This document shows, one piece after another, positions 3,160-10,521 of a stretch of 64,000 bases of DNA. The notes below the pieces were generated by a model. It was not told the DNA's origin. It saw nothing but the letters and a program-made list of their open reading frames with translations, and did not search any database. Source of the stretch: Candidatus Ozemibacter sibiricus (lineage in GTDB: Bacteria > Muiribacteriota > Ozemobacteria > Ozemobacterales > Ozemobacteraceae). The stretch lies in the NCBI GenBank assembly GCA_003327425.1, contig QOQW01000011.1:62001-126000 (forward strand), in the 5' to 3' direction. Position 1 is the stretch's first letter. Each line of letters starts with the position of its first letter. The translations under genes were made by a program, and so were the position numbers.

Positions 3160-3427
3160 GCAAGAGGCGTAGAACCGGCCGGCGGCGCCGAAGGGACCGC
3201 CTTGAGCCGAGCTGGCGATCCCTCACGGCCCGAGACGACGAGGGGCGAGGGCGCGATCGGGAGGTCGCCCCGCCCGGCATGGCCGCTGGGCTCGGCTGCG
3301 AGGCGAGGCCGGCGCCGCCGAGACTCTTGATCGGAGGGCCAAGGGGTCGGGCGCAGCGCGGCGGTCGACCCGGCGAGTACGGTATGATATGGTGGTCCGA
3401 CTCTGACCGTGGAGGGCTCGCCCGTCC

Positions 3428-4561
3428 GTGCTGACTGCTGATCTTCGAATGCTGTGCGCCGACCAGGAACGGTCGGTGCGCGAAGTACGGGAAGACACTG
3501 CCGTGATCGGGGCGATCGGCTGGGGCGAGGTCGGTACCGAGAAGGTGGCCGATGTGCTGGTCCAGTACGACCACAAAGGCCCTGTGCTGACGCTGACCAC
3601 CTCGCGGGGGGCGGTGTTGCGGGCCAGCCCCGAGCACCTGTGCTTCGGCCGTCTCAATCCGCTGTGCCGCCAACACTACCTCTACCTCATGGAACGGTCG
3701 TCCCTGGGCTTTCGCGTGGGGTTGACCAGCGACCTGCAGCGGGATCTTGTCGCGGTCCAGAACCTCAAGCTCGATCTCTTCCACCAGCATGAGGTGGTCG
3801 ACCGGCTCTGGATCATCGAGGCCACCGACAGTCTGCCGCGGGCGACCTTCCTCGAAAAGCTGTGCACGTTCAAATACGGCCTGCCCAACATCCCGTTCAC
3901 CGGGCGGCATCTCGAGTCCGACCTGCCCGAGGAACTGGTGCTCGAGCTGTTCAACCAGATCGATACGCCGTCGCGGGCTCACCAGCTCTTGATGGATTGG
4001 TACATGTTCCAGGATTCCCCCCATATCACGCTGCGCCTGGCCGGGGCGCAGGCGGGGGGGAGCAATGCCGTCCAGTTCACCATCTTCGGAGGCGCAGAAA
4101 AGAATCGGCGGCAGACCAACTACACCCACCTGATCCGCATCGACAGCAATGTCGAACTGAAGCGGGCCGAACATCAGCAGTTCAAGCGCCGCATGGGGGC
4201 GCGGGGCATGTGGAATCTGGAAGTGACCCGCGACGACCTCGAGGAGGCCCAGCTCTTCGTCAAGACGCTCGCCTGCCTCGACAATCTCGAAGTGGTGCGG
4301 AAGATCCAGCTCACCAAGAAGGCGCCGTTCTACCTGCTGCCGGCCTCGCACCTCAAGGTGGGCATGAACGTGCCGATCATGGGGCCCCATGGCATCGAAG
4401 AAGATTCGATCGTGTCGATCACGGTCGATGATGTCCAGGGGCCGCTCTACGACTTTCGGCTGAACGGCTTGAGCAACTATGTGGTCGGCCAATGGGTGGT
4501 GGGCGCCTGGCAGGGCAACCCCGCCCGGTTGCTGGGAAAACCCGATGAACCCCGTCTTTGA
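3428..4561 (+). CDS. Free-standing intein-like Hint protein with GIY-YIG-like segment, coupled to pcrA
   Basis: A 377-residue protein resembling the large inteins found inside PcrA/UvrD helicases, but here a separate gene. Near the N-terminus GWGEVGTEKV (31-40) and the block-B-like region ending SPEHLCFG (67-74, His70) match the Hint fold. A GIY-YIG-nuclease-like motif follows in YLYLMERSSLGFRVG (84-98). The C-terminal Hint strands are ASHLKVGMNVPI and YDFRLNGLSNYVVG. The terminal His-Asn needed for splicing is replaced by Gly359-Ala360, and Cys10 is the only plausible block-A cysteine, so splicing looks dead. The GTG start has GGAGGG at 3411-3416. The last 17 bases overlap the helicase start at 4545 in another frame, implying translational coupling. 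The family assignment is by motif recognition; the function is inferred. Confidence 0.72.
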   Translation: MLTADLRMLCADQERSVREVREDTAVIGAIGWGEVGTEKVADVLVQYDHKGPVLTLTTSRGAVLRASPEHLCFGRLNPLCRQHYLYLMERSSLGFRVGLTSDLQRDLVAVQNLKLDLFHQHEVVDRLWIIEATDSLPRATFLEKLCTFKYGLPNIPFTGRHLESDLPEELVLELFNQIDTPSRAHQLLMDWYMFQDSPHITLRLAGAQAGGSNAVQFTIFGGAEKNRRQTNYTHLIRIDSNVELKRAEHQQFKRRMGARGMWNLEVTRDDLEEAQLFVKTLACLDNLEVVRKIQLTKKAPFYLLPASHLKVGMNVPIMGPHGIEEDSIVSITVDDVQGPLYDFRLNGLSNYVVGQWVVGAWQGNPARLLGKPDEPRL

Positions 4562-6920
4562 GCAGGCCCTGGCCGGCCTCAATCCGCGCCAGCGTGAAGC
4601 GGTCGCCTTGACCCAGGGGCCGGTGCTGGTCATCGCCGGCGCCGGGTCGGGGAAGACCCGCATGCTGACCGTGCGCATCGCCTGGCTGATCGAGCGCGAA
4701 CAGGTGCCGCCCTCGGCCATTCTGGCTCTGACCTTCACCAACAAAGCGGCTCGCGAGATGCGCGAGCGGGTGCAGCAGTTGATTCCCGGCGCCGGCGACG
4801 AGGTCACGCTCTCGACCTTCCATGCCTTCTGCTGCAGCCTGCTGCGGCGGTGGTCGACGGCGGCCGGCTACCCCGAGGGGTTCACGATTTACGATGAAGA
4901 TGATTCCGAGAAGGTGATGAAAGGGGTGCTCGACAACCTCGATCTCGACCCCAAGAAATATGCGCCGCGCAAGATGTTGAACCTGATCTCGCAGCTCAAG
5001 AATGAACTCGTCGAGCCTGAGGCGTTCCAGGCCACCCTGCCCGACGATGAGAAGCTGCGCGAGGTCTACCGCCGCTACCAGGACCGCTTGCGCGAGAACA
5101 AGGCGCTCGATTTCGATGACCTGCTGCTGGTCACCCATCGGCTGCTGTCGACCCAGCCCGAGCTGTTGGCGAAATTCCACCGCCGCTATCGGTACTTCCT
5201 GGTCGACGAGTACCAGGACACCAACCACGCCCAGTATCGACTGCTGCATCTGTTCGCGCGCGACTCGGGGAACCTGTGCGTGGTCGGCGATGAAGACCAG
5301 TCGATCTACAGCTGGCGCGGCGCCACCATCCGCAACATCCAGGAGTTCGAAAAGGACTTCCCGGGGACGCGGGTCGTCCTGCTCGATCAGAACTACCGAT
5401 CGACTCAACGCATCCTCGATGCCGCCGGCGCCCTGATCGCCCGCAATCGGCGGGCCCATGCCAAGCACCTCTGGACCGACCGGGCCGGCGGCGAGCCGCT
5501 GACGTTCCATCTGGCGGCCGATGAGCGCGAAGAGGCCGAATGGGTGGCCGGACGCATCGCCCGGTTGCGCGACCAGGGGCTGCCGTTGCGGTCGTTCGCC
5601 GTTCTCTTCCGCATGAACAGTCTGAGCCGGTCGTTCGAGCAGGCCTTGAACCGGTACGGCCTTCCGTATGAGGTGACCGGCGGCATCCGGTTCTTCCAGC
5701 GGCGCGAAGTCAAGGATATCCTGGCCTACCTGCGGGTCATCGCCAACCCCTGGGATTCGGTCTCGCTGGCGCGCATCATCAACACCCCGCGCCGCGGCAT
5801 CGGCAAGACCATGCTCGACAAACTCGGCCAGGACGGCCCCCTGTGGGAGGGGCTCCAGAAGCAGGCGGCCGCCAGTCCGCATGGCAAGGTGGCGGAATTC
5901 TACGAGCTGGTGCGCGGCTGGCAGGAACTGGCGGGGCGGGCGAGCGTGTTTTCCCTGGTGCGGTCGGTGCTCGATCGCACGGGGTACCTCGACTGGCTGC
6001 AAGAGGACGACCCCGACACGGCCAAGGAACGGCAGGAAAACATCGACAGCCTGGTCTCGGATATCCGCGCCCAGGAAGAGAACAACCCCGATCTCGGATT
6101 GCGGGGGTACCTCGAGCAGGCGGCGCTGCAGGCTGATATCGACGGCCTCGACGAGCAGGCCGATCGGGTGCATCTGATGACGCTGCACAACGCCAAGGGA
6201 CTCGAATTCCCGGTGGTCTTCATGGTGGCCATGGAAGAAGGGATCTTCCCCCATTTCTCCTCGCATGCCGACCCCACTGAACTCGAGGAAGAACGGCGCC
6301 TGGCCTACGTCGGCATGACCCGGGCCATGCAGCGCCTGTATCTATCGGCCGCCCGGCGCCGGATGGTCTTCGGCTCCTGGAAGGACAACCTGGTTTCTCG
6401 CTTCATCACCGAACTGCCGCGAGAGACCTTCGGCGAACCGGCCCCTTGGGGGGCGGCCTTGTCCAGCTCGATGGCAACATCGAAGGGGGGGACGTCTTTC
6501 CCCTGGTCGACCAGGGGGCCGGGCGGAGGGGGGCCTGGCAGCCAGCCGGCCGACCCAGCCGTGCCGCGCGGTCTCGCCAACCCGGGATTTTTCGACCAGA
6601 CCGCGGGCAGAAAAGGCGGCGGTTCGACTCGTACCCCGCGCCTCAACGCTGGGTCAGGTAGCCCCATCGCTGGCGGTCCCGGGACTGGCGAGGGCTCAGG
6701 CCCGGGCTCGGCGGCCAGCAGTGCGGCGACCATGCTGAATGCCGTGCCGGGGGCGGAGGTCTTCCACCAGGTGTTCGGTCATGGCCGGGTGCTGGCCACG
6801 GAAGGCGCCAGCCTGGGCGATTTCCGCCTGACCATCGAGTTCAAAAATGTCGGAAAAAAGACCTTGCTTTTGCAGTATGCCAATCTTAGAGTAATACATA
6901 CCAATTCTTCGGGAGGTTGA
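4545..6920 (+). CDS. pcrA: ATP-dependent DNA helicase PcrA/UvrD
   Basis: Superfamily 1A 3'-5' DNA helicase of 791 residues, acting in repair, replication-fork rescue and removal of stalled RNA polymerase. Motif I is AGAGSGKT (31-38); further motifs are VDEYQDTN (II), GDEDQSIYSWRGA (III), LDQNYRS (IV), MTLHNAKGLEFPVV (V) and AYVGMTRA (VI). A Gly/Pro/Ser-rich linker of about 100 residues follows the motor. The protein ends in a Tudor-like domain (VFGHGRVLATEG...) typical of PcrA, which in known family members binds RNA polymerase. ATG 4545 is chosen because MNPVFEQALAGLNPRQREAV matches the usual PcrA N-terminus, although the frame is open further upstream. The start lies inside the Hint gene; the membrane protein gene at 6927 follows after six bases. 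The helicase itself carries no intein. Confidence 0.96.
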   Translation: MNPVFEQALAGLNPRQREAVALTQGPVLVIAGAGSGKTRMLTVRIAWLIEREQVPPSAILALTFTNKAAREMRERVQQLIPGAGDEVTLSTFHAFCCSLLRRWSTAAGYPEGFTIYDEDDSEKVMKGVLDNLDLDPKKYAPRKMLNLISQLKNELVEPEAFQATLPDDEKLREVYRRYQDRLRENKALDFDDLLLVTHRLLSTQPELLAKFHRRYRYFLVDEYQDTNHAQYRLLHLFARDSGNLCVVGDEDQSIYSWRGATIRNIQEFEKDFPGTRVVLLDQNYRSTQRILDAAGALIARNRRAHAKHLWTDRAGGEPLTFHLAADEREEAEWVAGRIARLRDQGLPLRSFAVLFRMNSLSRSFEQALNRYGLPYEVTGGIRFFQRREVKDILAYLRVIANPWDSVSLARIINTPRRGIGKTMLDKLGQDGPLWEGLQKQAAASPHGKVAEFYELVRGWQELAGRASVFSLVRSVLDRTGYLDWLQEDDPDTAKERQENIDSLVSDIRAQEENNPDLGLRGYLEQAALQADIDGLDEQADRVHLMTLHNAKGLEFPVVFMVAMEEGIFPHFSSHADPTELEEERRLAYVGMTRAMQRLYLSAARRRMVFGSWKDNLVSRFITELPRETFGEPAPWGAALSSSMATSKGGTSFPWSTRGPGGGGPGSQPADPAVPRGLANPGFFDQTAGRKGGGSTRTPRLNAGSGSPIAGGPGTGEGSGPGSAASSAATMLNAVPGAEVFHQVFGHGRVLATEGASLGDFRLTIEFKNVGKKTLLLQYANLRVIHTNSSGG

Positions 6921-6926
6921 TCATCC

Positions 6927-7385
6927 ATGATCCGTTTGCTGCGGTTTATCTGGAAGCTGTTCATCCTGGCCAGCGCCTTCGGGATCGGCTACATCATCGG
7001 CCGCGAGCACAGCTTCGAGGAAGAGGAAGATTGGGATAGCGACGAAGAAGCCGGCACCAGCACGGGTTCCACCACCGGAACCGGCGCTGCCGACGAGAAG
7101 AAGCCTGAGACGCCCGCCCCCGCCACCGAATCCCAGGTCGAGTTCACCTACACCGATCCGAAGGCCACCGCGGTGGCCGTGGTCGGCGATTTCAACGACT
7201 GGAACAAGGACAAGAACCCCATGCAGCTCGTCGATGGGGTCTGGAAAGCGACCGTGGCCCTGAAGCCGGGCCGCCACGAGTACAAGTTCGTGGTCAACAA
7301 CACCGATTGGATCACCGATCCGAAGAGCGCCGAAACGGTCGCCGACAAATACGGCGGACGGTCCTCCATCGTCGTCGTTCCCTGA
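6927..7385 (+). CDS. Membrane-anchored CBM48/AMPK-type glycogen-binding-like protein
   Basis: A 152-residue protein. An N-terminal hydrophobic helix (FIWKLFILASAFGIGYIIG) anchors it in the membrane, followed by an acidic and Thr/Gly/Ala-rich linker to about residue 65. The last 80 residues form a CBM48/AMPK1-like immunoglobulin-fold domain recognised by VVGDFNDWNKDKNP, the KPGRHEYKFVVN strand and WITDP. Such domains bind alpha-glucans in enzymes of glycogen metabolism and in AMPK beta subunits. Here no enzyme is attached, so it may be a scaffold or sensor. GGGAGG lies nine bases upstream of the ATG. It follows pcrA by six bases and is probably co-transcribed with it, although no functional link is obvious. 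Confidence 0.82.
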   Translation: MIRLLRFIWKLFILASAFGIGYIIGREHSFEEEEDWDSDEEAGTSTGSTTGTGAADEKKPETPAPATESQVEFTYTDPKATAVAVVGDFNDWNKDKNPMQLVDGVWKATVALKPGRHEYKFVVNNTDWITDPKSAETVADKYGGRSSIVVVP

Positions 7386-7458: not shown

Positions 7459-10400
7459 GTGGTCAAACGCATCTTCTTCGAAGAAATCGTCGACCGGGAA
7501 CTGCTCAAGCGTTTCCTGCAGCGCTTCCAGAAGCTGACCGGGCTGAGCCTGCTGCCGTTCAACGAACGGGGCGAGGCGGTGGTCGGCGATCCCGCCCCCA
7601 TTCTCGGCGGGGTGAACGAGGCGGAAGACCTCGTCCACTTCCCCGATCGGCAGCGCCTGTCGCGGCATGACGGGGCCAGCCTGCGGCTCCTCAAGCTCGA
7701 GTTGCGCGGGCACCTGTATGGTGCGGTGCTGATCGGCCCGTATATCGGGCCGGGCGACGCCTATACCGGCCAGGCGCCGCTGCCGCGGCTGACCGATGAG
7801 CAGATCGAAGCAGCCGCCGAGATGATCGAGCAGTTCTTCGGCCAGCAGGTCGAGATCGCCGCCGAACGGGAAGACCTGCGCCGGAAGGAGAAGATCCTGT
7901 CCGTTCTCGAAGAGGCGTCGAACATCATGAACTCCAGCCTCGACTTCCAGAACCTGCTGGAGTTCCTGATGGATATCGCCATCGACATCACCGGGGCGAC
8001 CTGCGGCGCTCTGCTCTTGAAGAAAGAGAAGAAGCGCTACCTCGAAGTGGCGGTGGCGCGGGGCAAATTCCCCCAGGAAGTGAAGAAGATCCGGGTGCCG
8101 ATCGGCAAAGGCGTCACCGGGTGGGTCGCCCGCAATCGCGAGCCGCTGATCGTGCCCAACGTGCTGCTCGAGCCGCGTTACATCGAGACCCCAGAGACCA
8201 TCTATTCCGAGATGGCGGTGCCCCTGGTGGTCGGCGATCGCTTGATCGGCGTGGTGGCGGTCGATTCCTCGGAGATGAATGCCTTCTCCAAGGAAGACTG
8301 CACCATCCTCAGCACGCTCGCCAGCATGGTGACCAAGGTGCTCGAGAATGCCCGTCTGCTGGCCGAGTCGCAACAGAAGATCCGCGAGATGACCAGGCTG
8401 TTCGCCATCTCCGAGCGGCTGGCGGGGGCCTGGGGCGAGTCCGAGGGCGTGCTCGACGCCGTGCTGAACGATGCCATGGAGGCCATCGGCTGCGCCGGCA
8501 TGGCGCTGATGTTCTACAACAGCGACCGCGAAGACCTCGCCATGGTCGCCTGCCGGGGCCTGCCCGTCGAACTCGAGCATCTGCGCATCCCGCTCGGCAA
8601 GGGCATCCACGGCTGGGTCGCCCAGCAGCGCAAGCCTTTGCTGATCACCGACGCCACCCAGGATCTGACCATCGCCAAGCATTCCTTCCTCGACCAGTTC
8701 TCGCGGTCGTTCCTGTGCATCCCGCTGCAGACGCCCGAACGCCTGGTCGGCGTGCTCGGCGCCTACCAGAAACGCGAGAAGGGGGTCTTCCAGGAGGATG
8801 ATCAGCAGCTGCTGACCACGATCGGCCAGCTGCTCACCGCGTTCTTCGAGAATCGGCGCCTGTTCGAGGATTCCCGCCGCAAGCTCGAATACTTCTCGAC
8901 CTTGTACAAAGTCAGCTCGTCGGTCAGTCGCACCCTGAACATCAGCAAGCTGTTCGGCATGATCCTGCAGCAGGTGCAAGATGTGATGGATGTCGAGAAC
9001 TGCTCGCTGATGATGTACGATGCCATCAAAAACCAGCTCACCCTCGATGCCGCCATCGGTCTGCCCAAGGACATGGTGGGCAAGATCCGGGTCGAGGTCG
9101 GGGAAGGGATCGCCGGCTGGGTCGCGCAGCACAAGCAGCCCGTCTTCCTTAAGGATATCTCGAAGGATGAGCGGTTCGTCCATCGGCATGGCCGGCTCGA
9201 CTACAAGACCCGGTCGGTGCTGTCGGTGCCGATCATGCACAACAAGGTGCTGCTCGGCGTGCTCAACGTCAACAACAAGCGGTCCGGGCAGGCCTTCACC
9301 GAGGACGACCTCAACCTGTTGCTGGGCATTTCGGGGCAGATCTCGCAGGCGCTGGCCAACGCCAACCTGCATGAGCGCACCGAGCAGCAGGTGGCCGAAC
9401 TCAGTCTCATCCAGGAGCTGGGCAAGGCGATCAACAGCTCGCTCGATCTCGATTCCGTCCTCAACTACTTCATCGATATGACCTCGCGCATCCTCGAGGC
9501 CGACCGCTCGACCCTGATGCTCTACGACGAACAGGAAAAAGAACTCTATGTGCAGGTCTCGCGCGGGTTCGAAGACAAGCGGATCCGGGAGATCCGCTTC
9601 AAGATCGGCGAGGGCATCGCCGGGCGGGCGGCCGAGCTGCGCAAGCCGATCCGGGTGGCGCACACCCATCTCGACCAGACCTACAAACGTCTGCCGTTCA
9701 GCGAGACCGAGAAGGCCTGCACCCTGATCTCGGCTCCGTTGATGAACCGCGACCACCTGATCGGCGTGATCAACTGCGAGCGCGAACTCGACAAGAAGGG
9801 GCCGTTCACCGCCGAGAACCTCGATCTGCTCGACACGCTGGCCTCGCAAGCCTCGGTCGCCATCCAGAACGCGCGGTTGTACAACAACCTGCTGAACTAC
9901 TACTTCGAGACCATCCAGGCACTGGCCGCGGCCATCGATGCCAAAGACAGCTATACCCATGGCCATTCCCGACGGGTCACCGATCTCAGCATCGGCATCG
10001 CTCAGGTGATGGGGCTCAGCCGCGATGAGGTGCATTCGATCCGGCATGCGGCCTTGCTGCACGACGTGGGCAAGATCGGCATCAGCGAGCAGATCCTGCT
10101 CAAGCCCGGTCGGCTGACCGACGAGGAGTTCGAGACGATCAAGACCCACCCCCATATCGGGGCGGGCATTCTCGATTCGATCGAGTTCCTGAAGACGGTC
10201 TGCCTGATGATCGAGCACCACCACGAGCGCTACGACGGGCGCGGCTATCCGGCCGGCCTGAAAGGGGAGGAGATCCCCCTCGGCGCTCGCATCATCGGCG
10301 TGGCCGACTCCTTCGACGCCATCACCTCGACCCGGCCCTACCGCAAGCCGCTCACCTTCGCCGAGGCCAGCAACGAGATCCTGCGGTGCTCGGGCACCCA

Positions 10401-10521
10401 GTTCGATCCGGCGGTGGTCAAGGCTTTCATGCAATTGCGCGACAGCCCATTCTGCCCAGAGTGGCTGAAACAGGACGCCCTCGAAGAGCCCCCGGCCACC
10501 GCCCGGAACGCGGCCCGCTAG
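7459..10521 (+). CDS. Multi-GAF HD-GYP phosphodiesterase-family protein
   Basis: A 1020-residue cytoplasmic signalling protein starting at GTG 7459. The first 140 residues (LLKRFLQRFQKLTGLSLLPF) look like a PocR-type ligand-binding domain. Four GAF domains follow, starting near residues 148, 311, 475 and 648, each with the recurrent GKGxxGWVA or GEGIAGRAA loop. The C-terminal HD-GYP domain begins near 815, with the HD pair at 868-869 (LLHDVGKIG), an HHHE metal-binding stretch, and the GYP signature at 929-931 in DGRGYPAGL. All expected metal and GYP residues appear present, so hydrolysis of cyclic-di-GMP or a related cyclic dinucleotide is likely. Input would come from the PocR/GAF ligands, which are unknown. 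There is no membrane segment. Confidence 0.92.
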   Translation: MVKRIFFEEIVDRELLKRFLQRFQKLTGLSLLPFNERGEAVVGDPAPILGGVNEAEDLVHFPDRQRLSRHDGASLRLLKLELRGHLYGAVLIGPYIGPGDAYTGQAPLPRLTDEQIEAAAEMIEQFFGQQVEIAAEREDLRRKEKILSVLEEASNIMNSSLDFQNLLEFLMDIAIDITGATCGALLLKKEKKRYLEVAVARGKFPQEVKKIRVPIGKGVTGWVARNREPLIVPNVLLEPRYIETPETIYSEMAVPLVVGDRLIGVVAVDSSEMNAFSKEDCTILSTLASMVTKVLENARLLAESQQKIREMTRLFAISERLAGAWGESEGVLDAVLNDAMEAIGCAGMALMFYNSDREDLAMVACRGLPVELEHLRIPLGKGIHGWVAQQRKPLLITDATQDLTIAKHSFLDQFSRSFLCIPLQTPERLVGVLGAYQKREKGVFQEDDQQLLTTIGQLLTAFFENRRLFEDSRRKLEYFSTLYKVSSSVSRTLNISKLFGMILQQVQDVMDVENCSLMMYDAIKNQLTLDAAIGLPKDMVGKIRVEVGEGIAGWVAQHKQPVFLKDISKDERFVHRHGRLDYKTRSVLSVPIMHNKVLLGVLNVNNKRSGQAFTEDDLNLLLGISGQISQALANANLHERTEQQVAELSLIQELGKAINSSLDLDSVLNYFIDMTSRILEADRSTLMLYDEQEKELYVQVSRGFEDKRIREIRFKIGEGIAGRAAELRKPIRVAHTHLDQTYKRLPFSETEKACTLISAPLMNRDHLIGVINCERELDKKGPFTAENLDLLDTLASQASVAIQNARLYNNLLNYYFETIQALAAAIDAKDSYTHGHSRRVTDLSIGIAQVMGLSRDEVHSIRHAALLHDVGKIGISEQILLKPGRLTDEEFETIKTHPHIGAGILDSIEFLKTVCLMIEHHHERYDGRGYPAGLKGEEIPLGARIIGVADSFDAITSTRPYRKPLTFAEASNEILRCSGTQFDPAVVKAFMQLRDSPFCPEWLKQDALEEPPATARNAAR

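Follow-up and report, generated by a model that had tools for sequence, protein, structure and literature searches.

What an intein-type protein may be kept for, when it interrupts no host protein and lacks the residues needed for splicing, is the question raised by a gene that overlaps the start of pcrA in the window (the whole stretch of 64,000 nucleotides from Candidatus Ozemibacter sibiricus analysed here). The usual description of inteins is that of splicing elements, with a regulatory role in some cases; among those turned into ordinary genes, the best known, yeast HO, is kept for its nuclease. With high confidence, the window gene is regarded here as a domesticated former intein that does not splice.

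An intein unit with its own start codon in front of an intein-free pcrA

The first-pass annotation had described an intein-type protein encoded as a gene of its own, and this was borne out by its open reading frame and by a pcrA left uninterrupted at the insertion site (Table 1).

Table 1. Features of the Hint gene and of pcrA (positions in the window)
Feature	Position	Strand	Remarks
Shine-Dalgarno-like GGAGGG	3411..3416	+	11 nt 5' of the GTG; read directly from the sequence
Gene of the free-standing, splicing-dead, intein-derived (Hint) protein	3428..4561	+	377 aa; GTG start
Hint N-terminal half, residues 1-76	3428..3655	+	Met1 in place of intein Cys1; block B Ser-x-x-His70 kept
GIY-YIG-like (probable) nuclease-derived segment, residues 83-157	3674..3898	+	YLYLMERSSLGFRVG ... 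KYGLP; motifs align with those of helicase inteins from phages and bacteria; predicted fold
Glu143 codon	3854..3856	+	aligns with the putative catalytic Glu of GIY-YIG; still present in the window copy
Second, nuclease-associated domain, residues 158-300	3899..4327	+	includes part of the best conserved stretch; no longer basic
Hint C-terminal half, residues 301-361	4328..4510	+	PASHLKVGM ... QWVVGA
Gly359-Ala360 codons	4502..4507	+	replace intein penultimate His and terminal Asn; alignment
Overlap of Hint gene and pcrA	4545..4561	+	17 nt, different frames; translational coupling range
pcrA, UvrD/Rep-family DNA helicase	4545..6920	+	791 aa, intein-free; ATG at 4545
Vacant intein insertion site in pcrA	5300..5301	+	between GDEDQ and SIYSWRG; filled in f5 PcrA

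Using profile-profile comparison, a profile of 13 free-standing members was found to match, across 334 columns, one built from ten helicase inteins of the in-frame kind (E 1.2e-53), so that a lack of similarity to Hint domains or PcrA inteins, which would have refuted the initial assignment, can clearly be dismissed. The same 13-member profile, which includes no inteins, also finds solved inteins (E 4.5e-5), and the Pfam Intein_splicing model is matched by 17 of 20 family members, the window protein taken alone giving only a weak match (E 6e-4). In end-to-end alignment with the in-frame inteins of PcrA/UvrD, Met1 is paired with Cys1, and the terminal His-Asn with residues 359-360. An AlphaFold2 model computed from the window protein together with close relatives and phage inteins reached a mean pLDDT of 74.6 and a pTM of 0.75, as against a pLDDT of 32 with close relatives alone. 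Foldseek searches with this model retrieved mini-inteins at a TMt of about 0.8 and the Hint domain of hedgehog at 0.85. The model was also matched in its entirety by a 924-aa phage protein whose name is unlisted (TMq 0.75), which is partly expected from the phage sequences in the AlphaFold2 alignment. Comparison of the model with Hint structures in the PDB, and the intein profiles, thus place both the N- and the C-terminal halves of the Hint fold in the window protein. From the Cys1 position to block G, the gene comprises a complete intein unit, preceded by no other protein and provided with a start codon of its own.

The downstream product is matched by UvrD/PcrA models, and its motif I (GAGSGKT) is uninterrupted, as had been noted at the outset, though the site occupied by the intein in relatives is not motif I and lies between GD(D/E)DQ and SIYSWRG. 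The overlap of 17 bases in different frames was likewise found as described, and no terminator-like site could be detected on the genes' own strand between the Hint gene and pcrA. GC3 values of the two genes are 0.84 and 0.83, respectively, and their codon use is alike; hence the Hint gene has not been acquired recently from a foreign source. Beyond pcrA, after 6 bp, the window contains a gene for a small membrane-anchored protein with, as judged by eye, a glycogen-binding (AMPK/CBM48-type)-like domain (6927-7385), followed by one for a GAF and HD-GYP-like protein (7459-10521).

In-frame relatives and the loss of splicing residues

Intact in-frame homologues exist within the same phylum, in the PcrA of family f5, where the intein begins with C after GDDDQ and ends with HN before SIYSWRG, and in a diverged PcrA-like helicase of family f4. 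The same intein type, with complete splicing residues, interrupts UvrD/PcrA-type helicases of other phyla (G123, G392); it is also found in UvrD helicases of Justusliebigvirus, annotated as intein-containing, and in IMG/VR contigs, where 22 hits were obtained using a degenerate DNA pattern, single-protein scans being mostly unproductive. The UvrD/PcrA inteins of f5 Riflebacteria and of phage (Escherichia phage JohannJBalmer, bas62_0080) share their full-length architecture with the window protein and align with it end to end at 20-30% identity. However, they interrupt the helicase and retain C1, the block B His and the terminal HN, whereas the window gene is separate and lacks C1 and HN. Among other phage helicase inteins (L150, L151, L158, L159, L168, L170), several carry Gly-Asn in place of the final His-Asn and are shorter in their central region, and that of L158 occupies a different position in its helicase, after DFD.

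Cys1, the block B His and the terminal His-Asn are kept in all 14 inteins compared. In the free-standing copies, Met1 is present in 28 of 28, the window included, and the His-Asn pair in none, while the block B His survives in eight, among them the window copy, which reads Ser-Pro-Glu-His for the TxxH of intein block B. The earlier reading of Gly359-Ala360 as standing in place of the penultimate His and terminal Asn was confirmed by alignment. An in-frame insertion, Cys or Ser at position 1, and a penultimate His with terminal Asn followed by C/S/T are among the hallmarks of a functional intein and are absent here, and splicing by the window protein is excluded on known chemistry.

A probably nuclease-derived centre that has lost its putative catalytic residue in most members

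The label GIY-YIG-like, given to the central segment in the first-pass annotation, stands as probable rather than proven: motif order and predicted fold speak for it, and the profile support is weak. In 13 phage and bacterial inteins, invariant V-Y, R-x-G, Arg and Glu positions follow each other in the order of GIY-YIG nucleases, and the AlphaFold2 model gives the segment a predicted beta-beta-alpha-beta-alpha topology. Alignment with genuine GIY-YIG domains using hhalign was weak (P 0.015), yet all four motifs were in register; the Pfam GIY-YIG model reached only E 0.066 with one intein, and an HMM comparison with PDB yielded no GIY-YIG match.

The window copy keeps Tyr86, Gly98, Glu143 and a candidate Arg105, although the GIY-YIG Arg is hard to align and Arg105 varies within the family. 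Among the 22 family members compared, the putative catalytic Glu is replaced by Leu, Gln, His or Ala in 17 and retained in five Ozemobacteraceae, belonging to the window genus, its neighbour G010 and g8. With Tyr86, the candidate Arg105 and Glu143 in place, some residual nuclease activity in the window genus cannot be excluded; across the family, however, the loss of this putative residue from most members implies that selection does not act to maintain nuclease activity. The second domain of phage inteins is basic (pI 8.8-11), that of most free-standing copies near neutral, and such a loss of predicted charge argues against retained DNA targeting. A separate observation concerns the inteins of the f4 PcrA-like helicases (L035, L036) and of L113 (G123), in which all splicing residues are kept while the GIY-YIG-like motif and its Glu are lost, and which by their residues look like nuclease-dead inteins.

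Distribution of the free-standing form

The separate-gene layout was recovered in 23 of the 24 Ozemobacteraceae genomes, always as one homologue per genome; G002 carries a single gene split over two contigs. The 24th genome is 64% complete and retains only a pcrA paralogue, the pcrA orthologue being absent as well. Despite high divergence, pcrA starts between -17 and +18 nt from the end of the Hint gene in 23 of 23 genomes, from 10 genera. As the spacing varies in this range without a constant frame, a frameshifted Hint-PcrA fusion was rejected; the single homologue per genome also led to rejection of an additional pcrA that would carry the intein.

Among the genomes searched, the free form is confined to this phylum, and only in-frame copies were seen in phages and in other phyla. 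The f2 copy follows dnaG-rpoD and precedes a STAS protein gene, and the f6 copy lies between PhoH-side genes and a chemoreceptor gene; pcrA is intein-free in both families. In f7 (genus g17) the copy comes directly after an ECF-type sigma gene (L037 3953-5104, minus strand; L039 3935-5077, plus strand), a frequent place of anti-sigma genes. A very diverged copy in f3 genus g13, missed by the first profile search, was recovered by HMM (E 1.1e-12, Z = 10,000) and is supported by a second genome; it stands one gene from pcrA, in the order mnmA, copy, galU, pcrA (L143 6007-7069, minus strand; L238). No free-standing copy was found in f3 genus g19 (G032, G039), where pcrA is present and, in G039, mnmA and galU adjoin, nor in f8.

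Selection, direction of change and rival explanations

Using the NG86 method on close pairs, dN/dS of the free gene ranges from 0.02 to 0.24, with 0.13 for the nearest full-length pair, as compared to 0.02-0.27 for pcrA of the same genomes. Values for the free-standing copies of f3 and f7 are 0.047 and 0.165. With dS of about 0.7-2, several values being near saturation, these ratios are only approximate, yet all of them stay far from 1; three saturated pairs gave no dS, and YN00 was unusable for many pairs. In 21 genomes, the trees of the free gene and pcrA have 12 of 18 splits in common, where shuffled trees share 0.22 on average and 3 at most, and the distances of the two genes are correlated (Mantel r 0.71) with means of 1.15 and 1.06. 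The free gene has been inherited together with pcrA throughout Ozemobacteraceae under purifying selection. Its best conserved stretch, at about residues 271-310, is away from the splicing and nuclease sites, and the tail (residues 362-377) is short, poorly conserved and without CxxC. A functionless intein remnant in decay, which the lost splicing motifs might suggest and which had been considered unlikely from the start, is hardly conceivable and is rejected, since frames are open in all genomes, dN/dS is as low as that of pcrA, including in f3 and f7, the tree matches and the rate is the same. Of the combination that was to have refuted the idea of a useful ex-intein, active in-frame relatives with neutral decay of the window copy, the in-frame relatives do exist and the window copy is not decaying.

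The proposal that an intein escaped from its host gene is supported by the end-to-end intein match, the vacant site in pcrA and the in-frame relatives. On the Hint tree, which is unrooted, free and intein forms are parted by one weak branch (support 63/78), and the rpoB tree unites f4, f5 and f2 to the exclusion of the others. Taken at face value, this amounts to two changes, one escape in f2 and one preceding f1, f3, f6 and f7; since f2 and f6 have long branches, the gene having escaped only once is also compatible with the trees. The opposite course, in which a free Hint protein was ancestral and only afterwards invaded the pcrA of f4 and f5 to become an intein, draws on the larger number of families with the free form on the rpoB tree, as well as on the missing root and the weak split of the Hint tree, but is quite improbable given the in-frame type with complete splicing residues in other phyla and many phages, and the restriction of the free form to one phylum. 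A change from intein to free gene is the more likely course, the in-frame form being the only one seen here outside this phylum, in phages as well as in bacteria.

A helicase intein would thus have left its host gene and become domesticated. Protein splicing and homing would no longer be its function, the Hint and nuclease-derived fold being retained as a non-catalytic accessory protein, whose production would be tied to that of PcrA via coupled translation and which would most likely contact PcrA or a PcrA-bound complex, a former interaction in cis being kept in trans. Taken as a whole, this account, with the accessory protein probably acting by contact, is our best explanation, held with confidence and doubt about equally balanced. 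Its part concerning action on or with PcrA is only tentatively inferred, without direct binding evidence. The location of the conserved stretch and the near-neutral second domain would fit a protein-contact role better than DNA targeting. A more far-reaching version, in which the intein became an obligate trans-acting subunit or chaperone of PcrA, co-translated family-wide and with an apparently separate origin in the f2 lineage, is possible on still slimmer grounds. PcrA can work without a free copy, because f3 genus g19 has pcrA and no copy.

The latter finding, and the f2, f6 and f7 copies located beside other genes, count against a PcrA partnership and in favour of the main rival, according to which the domesticated ex-intein has a function unrelated to PcrA, the adjacency being a trace of local escape and the coupling mere co-expression without contact. 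Against this rival stand the spacing to pcrA, kept across 10 divergent genera, and the f3 g13 copy, again within one gene of pcrA; it falls short of being the expected outcome but has to be taken seriously. A free-standing homing element that cuts pcrA alleles lacking it and is copied in beside them is less likely, indeed improbable. It has a model in the yeast WHO, intein-derived, splicing-dead and beside its host gene (PMC7282813), and both Tyr86 and the putative catalytic Glu143 are still present in the window copy. Nevertheless, this Glu is gone from most members compared, the gene tree follows pcrA by vertical inheritance without sign of transfer, a single copy is fixed in Ozemobacteraceae, and the DNA-binding-like domain is no longer basic.

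Comparison with known systems

Bacterial intein-like (BIL) domains belong to larger proteins, in which they retain the residues for autoprocessing. They likewise show the Hint fold outside classical inteins, and the solved BIL structure 2lwy is matched by the window protein, which, unlike them, has neither a flanking protein nor autoprocessing residues. No case of a domesticated or orphan bacterial intein was described in the literature searched. A phylum-wide set of ex-inteins under strong selection, lacking splicing residues and, for the most part, the putative nuclease Glu, would demonstrate that the scaffold of an intein can be of use in its own right. As the Ozemobacteraceae gene still sits with the gene of its former host protein, the debated domestication of inteins beyond splicing and cutting becomes directly testable with two proteins.

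A role given to an intein by its host is described for RadA (PMC8987985) and DnaB (PMC6195587), where inteins in DNA recombination and replication proteins undergo conditional splicing; the window protein cannot splice, and in its way of working an intein is what it resembles least. The nearest known parallel, and by analogy the organisation most alike, is that of the yeast HO endonuclease and WHO elements, which are intein-derived and free-standing, have no exteins and no motif G, and in the case of WHO genes adjoin the host gene FBA1 (Coughlan et al. 2020, PMC7282813). The window protein is similarly intein-like without exteins or motif G and encoded beside its host gene. However, HO and WHO are kin of the LAGLIDADG-type VDE, carry a C-terminal CxxC zinc finger and function in DNA cleavage, whereas the window family has a GIY-YIG-like segment with its Glu lost in most members and no zinc finger, and the window gene is that of a bacterium, close enough to its host gene for translational coupling. 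The window protein is therefore classed here as a domesticated intein derivative, neither as a functional intein nor as a homing endonuclease, and the strong selection on a former intein beside a helicase suggests that a parasitic element has turned into a working cell protein.
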